Source of the DNA: Promethearchaeota archaeon
Lineage (GTDB): Archaea > Asgardarchaeota > Lokiarchaeia > Sigynarchaeales > MK-D1
Length of the DNA stretch: 13,503 nt
Reading direction: 5' to 3'
Assembly: GCA_016839865.1 (NCBI GenBank)
Contig: JAEOTN010000131.1
Coordinates: 1-13,503 of the forward strand
A model generated the notes under the pieces. That model was not told the DNA's origin, did no database searches, and saw only the letters and a program-made list of their open reading frames with translations. This document shows positions 1 to 10,518 of this stretch, piece after piece. Position numbers and translations under genes: made by a program. How positions within the stretch are numbered: the stretch's first letter is position 1; each line of letters begins with the position of its first letter.

Positions 1-2633
1 CCTACATTTTCAATAGTTAGATTATAAGTGTTTAGCATCCCTGGTGTCGAATTGTAATGGCCTAACTCCGCAGTTGCTAATAGAATAGGAGCTGGATCTG
101 ACACCGCAGGAACGGGATTAGAATCAATATAATAAGTATTGTGCCCTGTATAAGTGGAATATGCGACAATAGCAGGAGATTGCAGAATTGGTTCTAGATC
201 TCTATCGTAAAAATGCAAATTAATCCGCTCGATTGATAGAATTTGAGCAGAATCAGTGTTGAAGGTCAATTTAAAAAAACTTTGGTAATCATTTGATGGA
301 TTTATATAATCCATTAAATTCGATGGAGTAGTGAAATTAATACTTGTATTGGTTGTGCTGTATAAGGACTTTGGAATAAGGTCATATGCCATACTTGTTG
401 TGTTGTAGAATTCTAATGTAAATTGTGTATCCATAATGAGTTCTTGATTTGAACTAAAATTACATTCCAATCCAATTTGATCTAATGAATTTTGGAGGAA
501 ATCAATAATTGAAGTGTTCTCAAATGAGAAAAATACTTGAATAAGGTTGTCTTGACCGATTTGCTCAGAAGCGATATCCCAGCTTGTCCCATCTTCAGTC
601 GTTGCATTTATGGGTTCACTTGGACCCACCGAGGTGCCGTATGAGAGATAAGGTTCCAAATTGTCTCCAGAGATGGTGAAATTAAAATCATGGAATCTTG
701 TGTAATTATAAAAAGGCTCAATAGATAGATCACTCAAGGTATAGGTAATACTTTCACCCGGATCCAATTTCCAGTTGGCATTATTAAAAATACTGTTAGA
801 TTGATTGAATAATTCTGCAAAAATTTCTCGTTGTTCTTGTGTAACTCCTGATGAATTAAAATAATCGTCATGAACAGGATCTAAGATGTCCTCAGCAAAC
901 TCAGGTTTATAGAATGTAAGTTGTGTGAAATCGGTTATTTCAGGATAGAGATGATCATAAACACCCGATCCCAACGAATCTATGAAAATGAATCGAGGTT
1001 CTTCTTCTGGTATTAAGAATTCTTCAACAGTCATCCCATATTGCATATCAATGAAATCAGTAATTACATCAGGGATTGGAAGAAATGTTTGGTTAAGTAC
1101 TGGGAATTCAATTTTACGACCCCATGCTGGAACTTCTCCAACATTTGTTACGTTAATATCAATTTCATAATCTCCTGTATCAAAAGATAAAAAACGGTAA
1201 TCTTTTTCGATTCGCAAGACTGGTTCAGTTGAATTTACTGCATATTGAATAGAAAATTCACCTATGGGTTCTAATAAGCCTGTAGGTACTACAGGCAATC
1301 CGGTTAAGCTCAAAGTCGTAAGTAGGTTTAAAATATTCCCTACCGTTTCATGATCGTATAAATTTGTAACAATCCGATTTACCGCATCATCCGTTCGCCA
1401 AAAAGTCCTTAGAGAATAATTGGAAATTATGGAAATATCTAAATTTTGCCCTAGGAGAAATGCTGCTTCTACTATTGAATCTAAAATATAACTGGAAAAA
1501 TTATTGTAAAGGGGTGTAAATGATAAAATATCCGAGGAATAGATTGAAACATCAATTTCAGAGAGTAAAGCTCCAACTAAGGAAATATATACTTTTTTAC
1601 TTGGGCTAAGTAACCCTCTTTCTGAAGTATCGTAATTAAGAGCTTTGAATAAATCAAACTCATACTTATCTCCTGAGATGTGCTGTATACCTTCTTCGTT
1701 TCCTTCATATTGAAGTATGGTAGTTATAAATTTAGAATCTCCTTCAAGAAGTTGGGCGGTGTCAAATGCCGAGAATGCACCACTTGAAACATTTAATAAA
1801 TCGAATACACCACCAAACAGGCCTGATATTTGTGATACATCCGCAAATGAAGTAGCTATGTAGTCAATCTCAAATTTCTTAAATTCATCTGGGAAATCAA
1901 AACCATCTGTAAGAGTATCTACTGAATCTAACATTAAAATATAAGAACTAATATGACTTTGTGTCAAGTATTCGTTGCTCAATAATCGATCAGCATCAAT
2001 TGCACCCCAATATCCATCTTGAGGGGCATTACTGATCACTAAATCGAATAGATCACCCCAATTAGGATAAAATCCCATAAATGGATAAAAAGTATCTTCA
2101 CTGAAACTTTCAAGCATAAATAATTGGATGTTAAAATTATTTTCAATGATGTCTAAAGCCCTACCAGCACGATCTGCAATAGTTTTTCCTGATCCAACCG
2201 CGGATTCATAATATAAAAATCCATAAAAACAGTCATAAGTGAGAAACTTCTCTGAACCAAATGCGCTTTCGCTAAAAGGGCTTGGAAACATTTGAGGGGT
2301 TATTCCATTTGAAGACGCAATTAAAACTGAGCATTCATGAAATGCAGGATCATTATAGTCAAATCCTTTCAAGATATTTGAATCATTTGTTATGTATCCT
2401 TGTTTTATAATTGATGTGTCTCCTGCTATGTAAGCGGATAGTTGTTCACTATACATTTCAGATCCTGCGACATCGGAGTCTTTTGGAGAATCTAACACAG
2501 TTTCGGTAGGTCCTGCAAATGAAATTAACGGGAAATTCTGGGAAAATATACTAAATACAATAAAACTGAAGAAAATACTCAGTTGAATTGTTTTCCGAAT
2601 GGCTTTATTAATTGAATTTAGAGATTTCATCAT
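1..2633 (-). CDS. Large secreted protein of an ABC-exporter operon, C-terminus cut by window edge
   Basis: The frame is open from the ATG at 2633 to the left edge, giving 877 codons with no stop, so the protein is incomplete. Residues 16-40 are a hydrophobic export signal after a basic start (KAIRKT), with possible cleavage near SFA-GPTE at about 40. The rest is polar, acidic and rich in aromatic residues and N-x-S/T sequons, with very few cysteines, as in archaeal surface glycoproteins. NVTNVG at 494-499 and NLTIENV at the window end resemble strands of CARDB/DUF11-like immunoglobulin-type folds. I do not recognise the family of the N-terminal 480 residues. Its start overlaps the permease stop in an ATGA, and GGGAG lies 5 bases before this ATG; a second ATG at 2630 has 8-base spacing and is equally possible. 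The operon suggests it is an extracellular partner or cargo of the adjacent transporter (inference). A C-terminal membrane anchor could lie outside the window. Confidence 0.85.
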   Translation of the reverse strand, partial: MMKSLNSINKAIRKTIQLSIFFSFIVFSIFSQNFPLISFAGPTETVLDSPKDSDVAGSEMYSEQLSAYIAGDTSIIKQGYITNDSNILKGFDYNDPAFHECSVLIASSNGITPQMFPSPFSESAFGSEKFLTYDCFYGFLYYESAVGSGKTIADRAGRALDIIENNFNIQLFMLESFSEDTFYPFMGFYPNWGDLFDLVISNAPQDGYWGAIDADRLLSNEYLTQSHISSYILMLDSVDTLTDGFDFPDEFKKFEIDYIATSFADVSQISGLFGGVFDLLNVSSGAFSAFDTAQLLEGDSKFITTILQYEGNEEGIQHISGDKYEFDLFKALNYDTSERGLLSPSKKVYISLVGALLSEIDVSIYSSDILSFTPLYNNFSSYILDSIVEAAFLLGQNLDISIISNYSLRTFWRTDDAVNRIVTNLYDHETVGNILNLLTTLSLTGLPVVPTGLLEPIGEFSIQYAVNSTEPVLRIEKDYRFLSFDTGDYEIDINVTNVGEVPAWGRKIEFPVLNQTFLPIPDVITDFIDMQYGMTVEEFLIPEEEPRFIFIDSLGSGVYDHLYPEITDFTQLTFYKPEFAEDILDPVHDDYFNSSGVTQEQREIFAELFNQSNSIFNNANWKLDPGESITYTLSDLSIEPFYNYTRFHDFNFTISGDNLEPYLSYGTSVGPSEPINATTEDGTSWDIASEQIGQDNLIQVFFSFENTSIIDFLQNSLDQIGLECNFSSNQELIMDTQFTLEFYNTTSMAYDLIPKSLYSTTNTSINFTTPSNLMDYINPSNDYQSFFKLTFNTDSAQILSIERINLHFYDRDLEPILQSPAIVAYSTYTGHNTYYIDSNPVPAVSDPAPILLATAELGHYNSTPGMLNTYNLTIENV

Positions 2634-6705: not shown

Positions 6706-8277
6706 TTAATTTGCAGTGCTTTTAATGGTTAAAGCGTTAACTTTCTTAGATAGATCGTTTAATGTACTATAATCTTGATCCAAAATTGCTTGTATGAATT
6801 TTAATTTAAAATTCTTTAATTTAGCACGTAAGGATTCTGAAACCATACTCAGTTGAATACCATCGAGTTTTCGGTATAATTCCTTATATGAATTCAAACT
6901 TTTCTCATCAACGTTAGTATCCATTTGTTTCAGGTATTCCACAGTAATTTTCTGTAAATCTTTAATGAAGTCCTGTGTATAGGAATCAAAGGGTGTAGCG
7001 TTACCAGTGTTCATAAATGTTTCCAGTTCTGAATGAAATCTAACACTAAATCTATCAAACATTTCAATAAATGAATCTTTTACTGCATCAGGATTGAAAA
7101 ATGGTGATGTGAAAGTAGTCAATGTGAAGTTTTCAAAGTGAATTGAATGGACATTGATATTTTTTCCTTGGAGTTGGAATCCATTGAATCCTTGTATGTT
7201 AATTTCTCCTGAGAAACGGTATAAAGCATTGATAAACATCGGTACTAATTCAATATCAAAATCTGGATTATCCTCTGTAGCTAATACTTTTACAAGAGCT
7301 TTCTCACCATTTTCTACAAATATTAACGATCTCCCGTGTTCATCAGAAATGATCATTCCAAAGATTAATTTCTCAGACATTTGTGCAATATATTTCTTGC
7401 TATTGATTTTGGACAAGTTGAAGTCAAATCGCTCAAATGTGATATCTTCTACTGAAGGAAAAGCAAAATTCGGTAAATTCCTAGAATCGGAGACCTCTCG
7501 TTTATGTAGGAATTTCTTAACGAATTCTTGATAATAGGATTCTCCTTCGTCTGATAGGAAAAATACTTGATCTGATCCGTAATTTTTTGTTAGAATATAT
7601 TTCTGTTCGGTAAGTCGGTTGAGTAGATTTGCTAAGTCGTGTTGATGCACATTCAATTGCCCTGCAAGTTCATGGAAATTACCAACTTTGATTTTCTTTA
7701 ATTGATTCAATAATCCAGCTAAAGATCTGAACGTGTTGAAATTATAAGGTGTACTAATGATTTGTTTGGATTGAACATCATCTAAAATGTCCAAAACTAC
7801 GTTTAATGTGTTCAAATAATGCTCATGCTTTATACTGGTGAAATACATTGACGTTCTTTCAACGAGCTTTTTGATTTTTTCTTTCAGGATTTTGAATTCT
7901 TTACTAGATAATAAGTCAATTTTGTGCCAAAGAATGTACATGCTTGCAGAAGTGCATTTCTCTTTACGAATTCTATGCATTTGATTAATGAGTTTCAAAC
8001 ATAATGCGAATTCTATTGTGGCATCAAGAGTAATCAAGATTAGATCAGTTTGTTGAAAAACGTCACTTTCTTGACCTAGCCAACGATTCAATTCTTGACC
8101 AGATAAGTCAAAAACTCCGATTTCTTCTTTTAATCGGTAGTTAAAAACTTCACTTCCACGAGTGGGCTCTAAAGGGTGGCTGAGTAAGTCAAAAGCAGAT
8201 TCCCCTTCAAAAAATAGCCGACGTAATGTGCTCTTTCCTGATCCTGGGGGTCCTACAAAAACAATCTTCTTCGGCAT
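6706..8277 (-). CDS. Rag/Gtr-like GTPase fused to a winged helix and a longin-like domain
   Basis: This is a 523-residue protein if started at the ATG at 8277. I chose that start because GGTGG (8286-8290) lies 8 bases before it; the longer reading from a GTG at 8289 begins inside that site. The N-terminal G domain (about 1-170) has G1 GPPGSGKS (9-16), a switch I PTRG (T39), G3 DLSGQE (57-62), G4 HKID (118-121) and G5 TSIKHE (147-152). HKxD in place of NKxD, and TSI at G5, are marks of the Rag/Gtr GTPases. Residues about 175-255 look like a winged helix with a DEG-containing wing. Residues about 305-435 follow the longin strand-helix order: paired strands GMIISD and RSLIFVEN, a helix at 341-356, three strands, then long helices. 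Eukaryotic Rags carry a related roadblock domain instead. It follows the small GTPase gene by 19 bases. Likely a cytoplasmic nucleotide-controlled switch; partner unknown. Confidence 0.88.
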   Translation of the reverse strand: MPKKIVFVGPPGSGKSTLRRLFFEGESAFDLLSHPLEPTRGSEVFNYRLKEEIGVFDLSGQELNRWLGQESDVFQQTDLILITLDATIEFALCLKLINQMHRIRKEKCTSASMYILWHKIDLLSSKEFKILKEKIKKLVERTSMYFTSIKHEHYLNTLNVVLDILDDVQSKQIISTPYNFNTFRSLAGLLNQLKKIKVGNFHELAGQLNVHQHDLANLLNRLTEQKYILTKNYGSDQVFFLSDEGESYYQEFVKKFLHKREVSDSRNLPNFAFPSVEDITFERFDFNLSKINSKKYIAQMSEKLIFGMIISDEHGRSLIFVENGEKALVKVLATEDNPDFDIELVPMFINALYRFSGEINIQGFNGFQLQGKNINVHSIHFENFTLTTFTSPFFNPDAVKDSFIEMFDRFSVRFHSELETFMNTGNATPFDSYTQDFIKDLQKITVEYLKQMDTNVDEKSLNSYKELYRKLDGIQLSMVSESLRAKLKNFKLKFIQAILDQDYSTLNDLSKKVNALTIKSTAN

Positions 8278-8296
8278 GTCATTTTCCACCTTTTTT

Positions 8297-8905
8297 TTAT
8301 GCTAATAGAAATGAATTATTTTTACGTGAGATGTCAATTAGTTTCTGAGTAACATCCTGGAATAAACTTTCAACATTATATCCTGTTCTGGAGGAAGTCT
8401 CAAAATATTTCGTTACATGGTAATCATGAATCCATTTTTTGATGTAATCAGAATCGATAGAAGCCCATGAGTTGTTTACTAAGTCTTTTTTATTACCAAT
8501 CAGAAAGATTGGGATATCTTTGGCATGAGTACGCGCTCCTTCTAAAACTTCCATCCAATCTACCAAATGATAAAGGGATTTCATACGAGATAGATCAAAA
8601 GCCACCAGGATTATATCAGCACCCTTAGTATAGTCTTTTAATAAAAATCGGAAACGTGGTTCTCCTGCAAAATCCCATAGGAGCAATTTTAAATATACAT
8701 CACAAAACCCATGTGCGAACTTAATATTCTTGACAAAAAAATCAGACCCAATGGTCATTTTAGTGTCTTCAGTAAATTTTCCAGTAGTGTATCTCATCAA
8801 AAGAGAAGTTTTTCCGATTCCTCCTTCTCCTAAAATAATGATCTTTTTGGAAATCACTAGGCACTTGTTACCACCAATATACGATAAATTTCCTAGGTCT
8901 TCCAT
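8297..8905 (-). CDS. Ras/Rab-type small GTPase
   Basis: A 202-residue single-domain GTPase. Motifs are G1 GEGGIGKT (26-33), G2 threonine in MTIGSDF (T51, the Rab-like form), G3 WDFAGE (77-82), G4 NKKD (138-141) and G5 ETSSRTG (169-175). The catalytic glutamine of G3 (AGQ in Ras/Rab) is glutamate here (AGE), which may change hydrolysis rate. About 15 residues precede the first strand, and the C-terminus (NNSFLLA) has no cysteine prenylation motif, so membrane attachment, if any, is by other means. I place the start at the ATG at 8905, with GGAG (8916-8919) 10 bases upstream. The TTG at 8914 would sit 1 base from that site. It is the first gene of an operon with the Rag-like GTPase 19 bases downstream, so the two are probably made together; functional pairing is inference. 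Confidence 0.95.
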   Translation of the reverse strand: MEDLGNLSYIGGNKCLVISKKIIILGEGGIGKTSLLMRYTTGKFTEDTKMTIGSDFFVKNIKFAHGFCDVYLKLLLWDFAGEPRFRFLLKDYTKGADIILVAFDLSRMKSLYHLVDWMEVLEGARTHAKDIPIFLIGNKKDLVNNSWASIDSDYIKKWIHDYHVTKYFETSSRTGYNVESLFQDVTQKLIDISRKNNSFLLA

Positions 8906-8954
8906 TTTGATCAATCTCCATCAATATTTCTTAAATCAATAATGTCGGAAAAAC

Positions 8955-9134: not shown

Positions 9135-9320
9135 ATGAAAGATAAGGATATACAAAACATAATCGAAGCTATCAGCTTTATCGAGGATCAACTCCAGAAA
9201 AACCAGAAAAAGTTAAGCAGCAAAGTGGGAGAACTCGAAAAAATGCTCAGTGCAATTAATTTACGTGTAGCTGAACTTGAAGAAAGTACCTATCAAAAAG
9301 TAAGTAAAAATCAAAATTAA
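9135..9320 (+). CDS. Small coiled-coil protein, 61 residues
   Basis: This short gene is credible because GGGAGG (9122-9127) lies 7 bases before the ATG and because the product is a near-continuous coiled coil rather than random sequence. Core positions I6, I9, I13, I16, L20, N23, L27, V31, L34, L38, I41, V45 and L48 follow 3-4 spacing with one irregularity around 27-31. Asparagine in a core position (N23) is often seen in parallel dimers. There are no cysteines, signal peptide or membrane segment, so it is probably a cytoplasmic dimer or a helix that packs on a partner. It is divergent from the two GTPase genes (229 bases between starts) and ends 7 bases from the convergent VWA gene. No family is recognised. 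It might be an adaptor or effector for a neighbouring GTPase, but that is speculation from position. Confidence 0.75.
   Translation: MKDKDIQNIIEAISFIEDQLQKNQKKLSSKVGELEKMLSAINLRVAELEESTYQKVSKNQN
9301..9320 (-). terminator. Probable T-rich terminator of the VWA gene inside the coiled-coil gene
   Basis: After the VWA stop at 9328 the minus strand soon reads TTAATTTTGATTTTTACTTA, opposite the last codons of the plus-strand coiled-coil gene. No other T-rich tract lies between the two stops, so minus-strand transcription probably ends within the 3' end of the facing gene. Confidence 0.4.
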
Positions 9321-9327
9321 TCTCTTT

Positions 9328-10518
9328 CTAAGCTGATCCAGGATTTATTAACCCACCGCAATTTCTACAGGATTTTATTTCATTATACATTTTTTCTAAA
9401 CAGGATTGATGGTAATAGGCACTACAGCTGCATTGGTATACTGTTTCTTCACCGGTCATAAAAATATTGCTACAGAACGAGCATACATCCTCAATATTTT
9501 CTACAATATTGTCCAGAACCTTGGTCATTTTGATAGGTTTCCCTGCAAATCCATCTTCATCCAATACTTTGATGGATTGACCACCAGTGATTTTCATTAA
9601 TTGTTGGACGGAATGTGGAACTTTTAATAAGAAAAAGCAATTCGGGCAGCGAAAGACTGTTTTATCTTGAAATTCCGAGTTATCTCGATCCGACCACATG
9701 CTAGCGCAATGCATATGAATTGGTCTACTACATGAGGGGCAGAAACGACCACACGAATAAAAAGGATTGCTACATACGGGGCATGTATTTTGGTAACATA
9801 TCTGGCATTTATGATCGACCTTCCCCATCATTTCTCGAATCTCACTAATACTGGGGCGGCGTAAATCGACAGCAATTTCAGCAACTAATCGTGGTAATTT
9901 ACTTGCTTTATTCGGATCAAAATAATCAGTATCAGCTGATTGTTTTTTGCTTGCAAATCCCTCTGCTGCTCGATACAGGGCTTTAGCATTTGAAAAGAAT
10001 CCATACTCTGAGTTTGTTGCATTAGCAATTTGTCTATATGGATTTAATGAGCGATCCATTTCGAGAAGCCCAAGTTGGCAGATGTCAATATAAACTCCAA
10101 GACCTTGTGCTGCTTTAATTATCTTCTGCATTCGTGCGGGTTCAATATCAGGCTTAGATGCATCTGTAAAAATGATAATACGCTGATTTGCACCACCAAG
10201 ATGACGAATTTTTTTAACTAGCATCTGAAGAGCAAATGCAATTCCATCTACAACATTTGCGGTACCGGATATTTCCAATTTATTCAACTGACTTGCCAAA
10301 AAATCTGAATTGTTTGAAAAATCCGCCAATTTGATAATGCGAGTTCCAATTGCAGCAATAGCAATCGAATCTTTGGGATCTTTTCGAATTTTGTTTTCAA
10401 TAAAAAGTTTCACCAATTTTTGAATAGTTCTAAGTCGATTTGGCTTAAAATCCGTACGAATCATCGATCGAGAACAATCCCAGAGAATTACAGTATCTTC
10501 TAATGCGATGGAACTCAT
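9328..10518 (-). CDS. VWA-domain protein with two C4HC3 zinc fingers, Ssl1/p44-like
   Basis: A 396-residue protein. Residues 8-190 form a VWA domain with a MIDAS-type metal site: DCSRS (D14, S16, S18), T86 and D119 in FTDAS. The stretch after the first strand, SRSM then DFKPNRL (16-29), closely matches the start of eukaryotic Ssl1/p44 (SRTM, DLKPNRL, recalled from memory), the TFIIH subunit whose VWA domain binds and activates the XPD helicase. Two zinc fingers follow. C246, C249, C260, C263, H268, C271, C291, C294 and C346, C349, C363, C365, H370, C373, C384, C387 both have C4HC3 order, as in PHD, RING-CH or Nse1-type RINGs. C238, C241 and C256 are additional. Ssl1/p44 also ends in zinc fingers. 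It may be a transcription/repair scaffold or a ubiquitin-ligase-like protein. No clear ribosome site precedes the ATG, so the mRNA may be leaderless. Confidence 0.88.
   Translation of the reverse strand: MSSIALEDTVILWDCSRSMIRTDFKPNRLRTIQKLVKLFIENKIRKDPKDSIAIAAIGTRIIKLADFSNNSDFLASQLNKLEISGTANVVDGIAFALQMLVKKIRHLGGANQRIIIFTDASKPDIEPARMQKIIKAAQGLGVYIDICQLGLLEMDRSLNPYRQIANATNSEYGFFSNAKALYRAAEGFASKKQSADTDYFDPNKASKLPRLVAEIAVDLRRPSISEIREMMGKVDHKCQICYQNTCPVCSNPFYSCGRFCPSCSRPIHMHCASMWSDRDNSEFQDKTVFRCPNCFFLLKVPHSVQQLMKITGGQSIKVLDEDGFAGKPIKMTKVLDNIVENIEDVCSFCSNIFMTGEETVYQCSCSAYYHQSCLEKMYNEIKSCRNCGGLINPGSA

Follow-up and report, generated by a model that had tools for sequence, protein, structure and literature searches.

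A Lokiarchaeal VWA-RING-RING protein arranged like the TFIIH subunit p44: a candidate ubiquitin E3 ligase or E3-like scaffold

Introduction

Archaea have helicases resembling XPB and XPD, but p44 and p34 are not generally attributed to them. The origin of the non-helicase core of TFIIH is unexplained, and the Lokiarchaea are related to the ancestors from which complex cells arose. In p44 (Ssl1 in yeast) a von Willebrand factor A (VWA) domain is followed by a central zinc finger and a C-terminal RING-type finger. According to PMC4094531, the RING of p44 is bound by the VWA domain of p34, and yeast Ssl1 has been put forward as having ubiquitin ligase (E3) activity. A working cascade of ubiquitin-activating enzyme (E1), ubiquitin-conjugating enzyme (E2) and small RING protein is described for Caldiarchaeum, with homologues in Asgard archaea, in passages of PMC5654768. 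The subject of this report is a gene on a stretch of DNA of 13,503 nucleotides (the window), contig JAEOTN010000131.1 of assembly GCA_016839865.1 from a Promethearchaeota archaeon. Its product is related to p44 in architecture, a relationship supported by profile and structure comparisons. We favour, at a probability of roughly 45%, the reading that this protein of p44-like domain order acts either as a ubiquitin E3 ligase of the RING type or as an E3-like scaffold.

A literature search found no report of p44 or Ssl1 in Asgard archaea, with supplements, subscription journals and preprints lying outside that search. The 'TFIIH-like' family in the available passages of PMC9258230 is a relative of RAD25 (XPB), and those of PMC13257274, on Asgard archaea and TFIIH, contain nothing on p44.

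Domain architecture and homologues

A minus-strand open reading frame (ORF) with an ATG start encodes the protein, whose features are as follows.

9328..10518, minus strand: group A VWA-RING-RING protein, 396 amino acids (ORF, Pfam, homologue alignment)
9949..10503, minus strand: VWA domain, residues 6-190 (Pfam, alignment, structure model)
10432..10446, minus strand: KPNRL motif, residues 25-29 (sequence against p44 in the PDB)
9637..9807, minus strand: finger 1, a C4HC3 RING variant, residues 238-294, with the E2-contact triad I240, W275 and P292
9358..9483, minus strand: finger 2, C4HC3, residues 346-387, its ligands falling on those of the p44 C4C4 RING

A Pfam scan of the protein returned VWA_2 (8e-14) and the Ssl1 family PF04056 (3.6e-10), the latter at 40.4 bits against a cutoff of 27. 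The metal site of the VWA domain, inspected by eye in the alignment, has DxSxS and D119 and has lost the Thr position. The ligands of finger 1 are C238, C241, C260, C263, H268, C271, C291 and C294, and those of finger 2 are C346, C349, C363, C365, H370, C373, C384 and C387. A preliminary description, made from the letters of the DNA, had recognised a VWA domain and two C4HC3 fingers. This observation is confirmed: both fingers have eight ligands in C4HC3 order, and none of the 16 varies in any of the 31 aligned proteins, which also answers the doubt it had raised over conservation of the cysteines. C246, C249 and C256, near finger 1, are extra cysteines of the window protein which many other members lack.

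The 31 family proteins, the window's own included, were found among 5.8 billion proteins searched. A scan of GTDB species genomes confirmed 94 loci, with the best 80 retained. Two groups, A and B, were told apart by E-value band. The 62 group A ORFs analysed are those of the window and 61 loci, with L058 (truncated) dropped and L061 not called.

Relationship to p44

Kinship of the group A protein with p44 is probable. When the full-length model was used as a Foldseek query, TFIIH p44/Ssl1 chains occupied ranks 1-18, over 393-406 columns, and an hhalign profile alignment to p44 was co-linear over 338 columns; the earlier claim that zinc fingers follow the VWA domain as in p44 is thus upheld. 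The eight ligands of finger 2 align with those of the p44 RING, with one His for Cys, and in finger 1 only ligands C3, C4, C7 and C8 align, with the four cysteines of the central CxxC...CxxC finger of p44. Here the two proteins differ, since finger 1 of the Lokiarchaeal protein is a full C4HC3 finger whereas the central finger of p44 is C4, lacking both the second zinc site and the E2-contact triad. Nor is the Pfam family of the p44 RING, C1_4, reached (nothing over cutoff in 8 genomes).

A control with a p44 VWA profile covered four Lokiarchaeal genomes, taking the best ORF of 30 VWA-matching loci together with seven further family loci. Four group A proteins and one of group B scored 35-48 bits, a second B protein 8.5, and all remaining VWA loci at most 5.5. 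Over the larger sets the median was 37.6 bits for group A (n=62, range 4.6-50.5) and 35.6 for group B (n=19, range 9.0-39.7), against 9-13 bits for three VWA proteins from outside the family (P0037-P0039, two of them BatA-like). In a matched-depth comparison of three-sequence profiles (median of 25 draws), the p44 profile had its highest score against A (76.6), ahead of Rpn10 (57.4), B (53.7) and Bat (52.1).

The preliminary description took as its key clue SR-x-M and KPNRL motifs spaced as in p44. The spacing is as claimed: CSRSM starts at residue 15 and is followed by KPNRL from residue 25, in register with the DGSRTM...DLKPNRL of p44 in the PDB. As a clue, however, KPNRL is not conserved in its exact form, being found in 9 of 36 homologues and 25 of the 62 group A ORFs (the variant KPSRL occurs in 6 and 17, respectively), with Arg the sole invariant position in the 31-protein alignment. 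It is also present in the BatA-like P0037 and P0038, which share a VWA domain with the family but have no zinc fingers. KPNRL is therefore not specific to p44, and was rejected as proof of kinship.

The occurrence of KPNRL in Bat-type proteins is one of a number of points that weigh against kinship with p44. At matched depth the group A VWA domain scores 75.9 with Bat and 76.6 with p44, and that of B 89.3 with Bat and 53.7 with p44, so that p44 is not the favoured partner when the comparison starts from the Asgard proteins. The VWA domain of Rpn10 is at least as close by sequence. The VWA tree does not place p44, long branches meeting in it (approximately unbiased test, p 0.43-0.48; 0.435 for A, B and p44 as a single clade), and gave no decision between p44 and Rpn10. 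Compared by themselves, the fingers match p44 weakly (hhalign probability 24%, E 8e-4); a finger-only profile searched against the PDB found C1, PHD and RING chains and not p44; and a C-terminal model in Foldseek returned RING E3s first and p44 ninth, all above E 0.001. The lead of p44 in a structural comparison of finger models is below 1 Z unit, and a p44 C-terminal profile reached at best 9.6 bits with A and B proteins. Finally, the architecture is missing from most of the 195 phylum genomes sampled. This patchy distribution, the tie with Bat and the closeness of Rpn10 call for caution over descent from a common stock with p44.

The profile comparison proposed earlier, against Ssl1/p44, Rpn10 and Nse1, placed Ssl1 above its cutoff, with Rpn10 at least as close and Nse1 weak. 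The best matches were not generic VWA proteins, yet the weak best matches in NCBIfam are generic VWA models. It is plausible that the group A protein, which a membership test does not assign to TFIIH as a subunit, belongs to a VWA-RING family older than TFIIH, and we infer common descent with p44.

Finger 1 and the ubiquitin system

RING domains contact their E2 through a hydrophobic residue within the CxxC, a Trp four residues after ligand 6 and a Pro after ligand 7. On this customary definition I240, W275 and P292 of finger 1 stand at E2-contact positions. The triad is present in finger 1 of all 62 group A ORFs, and in 36 of 36 homologue proteins (a set overlapping those ORFs). Of the 19 group B ORFs, 16 have it. 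In finger 2 of group A these positions are occupied by different residues. The predicted structures of both fingers are RING folds, with ligands in cross-brace order. C4HC3-type RINGs are known from FANCL, Listerin and Nse1, where the surrounding domains are unrelated to those of the Lokiarchaeal protein. In Nse1 a winged-helix region precedes the RING, in place of which the Lokiarchaeal protein has a VWA domain; no Nse1 family appeared in the Pfam scan, and the Nse1 RING is no more than a weak match.

A search for E2 genes (PF00179), one of the checks proposed at the outset, found them in 53 of the 56 relatives' genomes that match the family strongly, and in 83 of the 139 others. With the triad, this strengthens the earlier suggestion of a ubiquitin-ligase-like protein, which stays open beside that of a p44 forerunner. 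Like srfp, the small RING finger protein of Caldiarchaeum and Asgard ubiquitin operons in the available passages of PMC5654768, the protein has a RING and comes from an archaeal lineage that possesses E2 genes. It differs in that srfp is small and operon-encoded, whereas here the RINGs belong to a 396-amino-acid multidomain VWA protein, and none of the window's annotated neighbours is a gene for E1, E2 or ubiquitin.

Family distribution and paralogue B

The named organisms among the 31 proteins are Lokiarchaeota/Promethearchaeota and one labelled Bathyarchaeota, and the titles of the best 80 loci name Lokiarchaeota/Lokiarchaeia, Sigynarchaeota, Helarchaeota and one Bathyarchaeota bin. The locus in that bin (L056) has gene neighbours and a high family copy number in common with the Sigynarchaeota loci L059 and L060; it is probably a misnamed Asgard bin.

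The phylum sample comprised 195 genomes from the phylum of G001, the Lokiarchaeota bin that holds L040. At E 1e-5 the family was matched strongly in 56, weakly in 12 and not at all in 127; the weak matches cover the VWA domain only or the fingers only, so the full architecture was not seen in those 12. Ssl1 PF04056 was above cutoff in 55 of the 195. Group A occurs in 44 genomes, 39 of which also hold a group B paralogue.

Group B leans towards p34, with a median of 14.8 bits with a p34 profile compared with 4.9 for A and at most 1.3 for P0037-P0039. Matches to the Pfam family Tfb4 occur in 28 of 195 genomes, 7 of them over cutoff. These seven are B-type family members matched over the VWA half alone, and Tfb4 matches were accordingly rejected as true p34. 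With Ssl1 the B protein of L068 reaches 37.1 bits, more than its 26.5 with Tfb4, a score short of the cutoff of 27.

Further family groups were noted. At the seven loci of groups C (L095, L096, L105) and D (L099, L100, L101, L106; partly in tandem), the proteins have a VWA-like region whose metal site is degraded, together with a C4HC3-like finger and, at the C-terminus, a zinc ribbon. Inspected by eye, group C retains the Ile and Trp of the triad and not the Pro, and L099 of group D is without the Trp and Pro. In other phylum genomes, frames of 110-275 amino acids (L167, L169, L171-L174) align with the profile at its finger 2 end alone.

Possible function and alternative explanations

If the group A protein is an E3 ligase or E3-like scaffold, its VWA domain would bind a substrate or partner. 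Finger 1, which with its eight ligands is a RING variant like those of FANCL and Listerin, would recruit the organism's E2 through the triad, whilst finger 2, a RING fold without the triad, would be a docking module in register with the p44 RING. Finger 2 may dock on the VWA domain of paralogue B, by analogy with the p44 RING on the p34 VWA domain. E2 binding, ligase activity and the partner's identity are predictions from these features. Weighing against them, the presence of E2 genes follows lineage, as the other genomes show, and is not independent evidence; and no ubiquitin-system gene was found among the window's Pfam-annotated neighbours, those of other loci being partly identified. Invariance of the triad in group A and the E2 genes of its relatives nevertheless make an E3-like function likelier than regulation of an archaeal XPD, the partnership suggested in the preliminary description. 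In that role the protein would be non-catalytic, its VWA domain binding XPD in p44 fashion and its fingers being structural, a forerunner of the XPD-p44-p34 triad. The p44-like VWA domain, the co-linear architecture, the company of A and B in most A-bearing genomes and the p34 profile's preference for B fit such a role, as do DEAD_2 (XPD/DinG-type) helicases in 185 of 195 genomes. DEAD_2 is, however, present with or without the family, and its model matches E. coli too and is not specific to XPD; thus no link between these helicases and the family emerges. No helicase or TFIIH gene lies among the window's neighbours, Tfb2 was not found in 8 genomes (a search without a positive control, in which the controls gave no match either, and hence uninformative), and the intact triad would go unexplained. 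What stands of the earlier p44 reading is architecture (Foldseek, hhalign, Pfam Ssl1 and the within-genome control) and probable kinship; the XPD partnership has gained no evidence, and we think it distinctly unlikely.

The credences attached to the alternatives overlap, as some concern descent and others function. Parallel assembly, in which Lokiarchaeia fused a VWA domain to RING-type fingers without a VWA-finger ancestor shared with p44, is compatible with several functions and is the least improbable alternative, albeit doubtful. The tie of A between Bat and p44, the greater closeness of B to Bat, the failure of finger-only sequence searches to find p44, the undecided tree, and strong matches in just 56 genomes with fragmentary weak ones all favour it. 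Yet p44 finds its best partner in group A, the domain order is identical with ligands in register through both fingers, and p44 chains head the full-length Foldseek list. A scaffold for small GTPases, with A and B partnering adjoining Ras/Rag-type GTPases and no ubiquitin chemistry, is unlikely, although neighbourhood offers it something: the gene order A, Ras, Rag-like is common to the window, L001 and L002, and group B is divergent to a GTPase gene of one sequence cluster at 17 of 17 loci (L064-L080). The divergent GTPase of L068, the one tested, has 401 amino acids and belongs to the Gtr1/RagA family (1.7e-22). Among group A sources, though, only the window, L001, L002 and L009 have a GTPase of that cluster in the flank; the flank clusters met more often are an M20 peptidase, at 46 sources, and methionyl-tRNA synthetase, at 53 of the 81 sources (80 loci and the window), and conservation of the triad is again unaccounted for. 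An Rpn10-like ubiquitin receptor or proteasome-linked protein is very improbable, even though the best PDB sequence match is Rpn10 (4.4e-14, against 1.9e-10 for p44) and the window protein scores 50.6 bits with an Rpn10 VWA profile against 41.7 with that of p44. That similarity is confined to the VWA half, full-length structure favours p44, and the Pfam list contains no ubiquitin-interacting motif, short as that motif is.

Implications for the origin of TFIIH

It is a tentative idea, and one we hold rather unlikely, that the proteins ancestral to the p44/p34 pair have surviving relatives in groups A and B. On such a view an Asgard VWA-RING E3 family would predate TFIIH. The central C4 finger of p44 (and p34) would be a remnant of the finger 1 RING from which the C1-C2-H5-C6 zinc site was lost, finger 2 would have become the p44 RING that docks on p34, and the proposed E3 activity of yeast Ssl1 would survive as a relic. 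A protein of p44 order with an extra finger seemingly able to recruit an E2 suggests how a TFIIH subunit may have begun. A conserved family that combines this order with a paralogue leaning towards p34 and with an E2-binding RING that is apparently intact would tie the origin of TFIIH to the ubiquitin system, a link testable with a few purified proteins.

Gene neighbourhood

Two GTPase genes accompany the VWA-RING gene in the window.

8297..8914, minus strand: Ras-family GTPase, the next same-strand gene
6706..8289, minus strand: Gtr1/RagA-like GTPase (1e-7) with a long C-terminal part

The order shared with L001 and L002 continues with an ABC ATPase and an FtsX permease. Amongst the divergent group B pairs at L064-L080, one has a 60-amino-acid ORF between the genes and another a cut GTPase ORF. 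At the window's edge an 877-amino-acid ORF (3-2633, minus strand), cut by the window end, matched nothing in Pfam at E 0.001. A 61-amino-acid ORF (9135-9320, plus strand), which has a relative in L002, separates the VWA-RING gene from the Ras gene.
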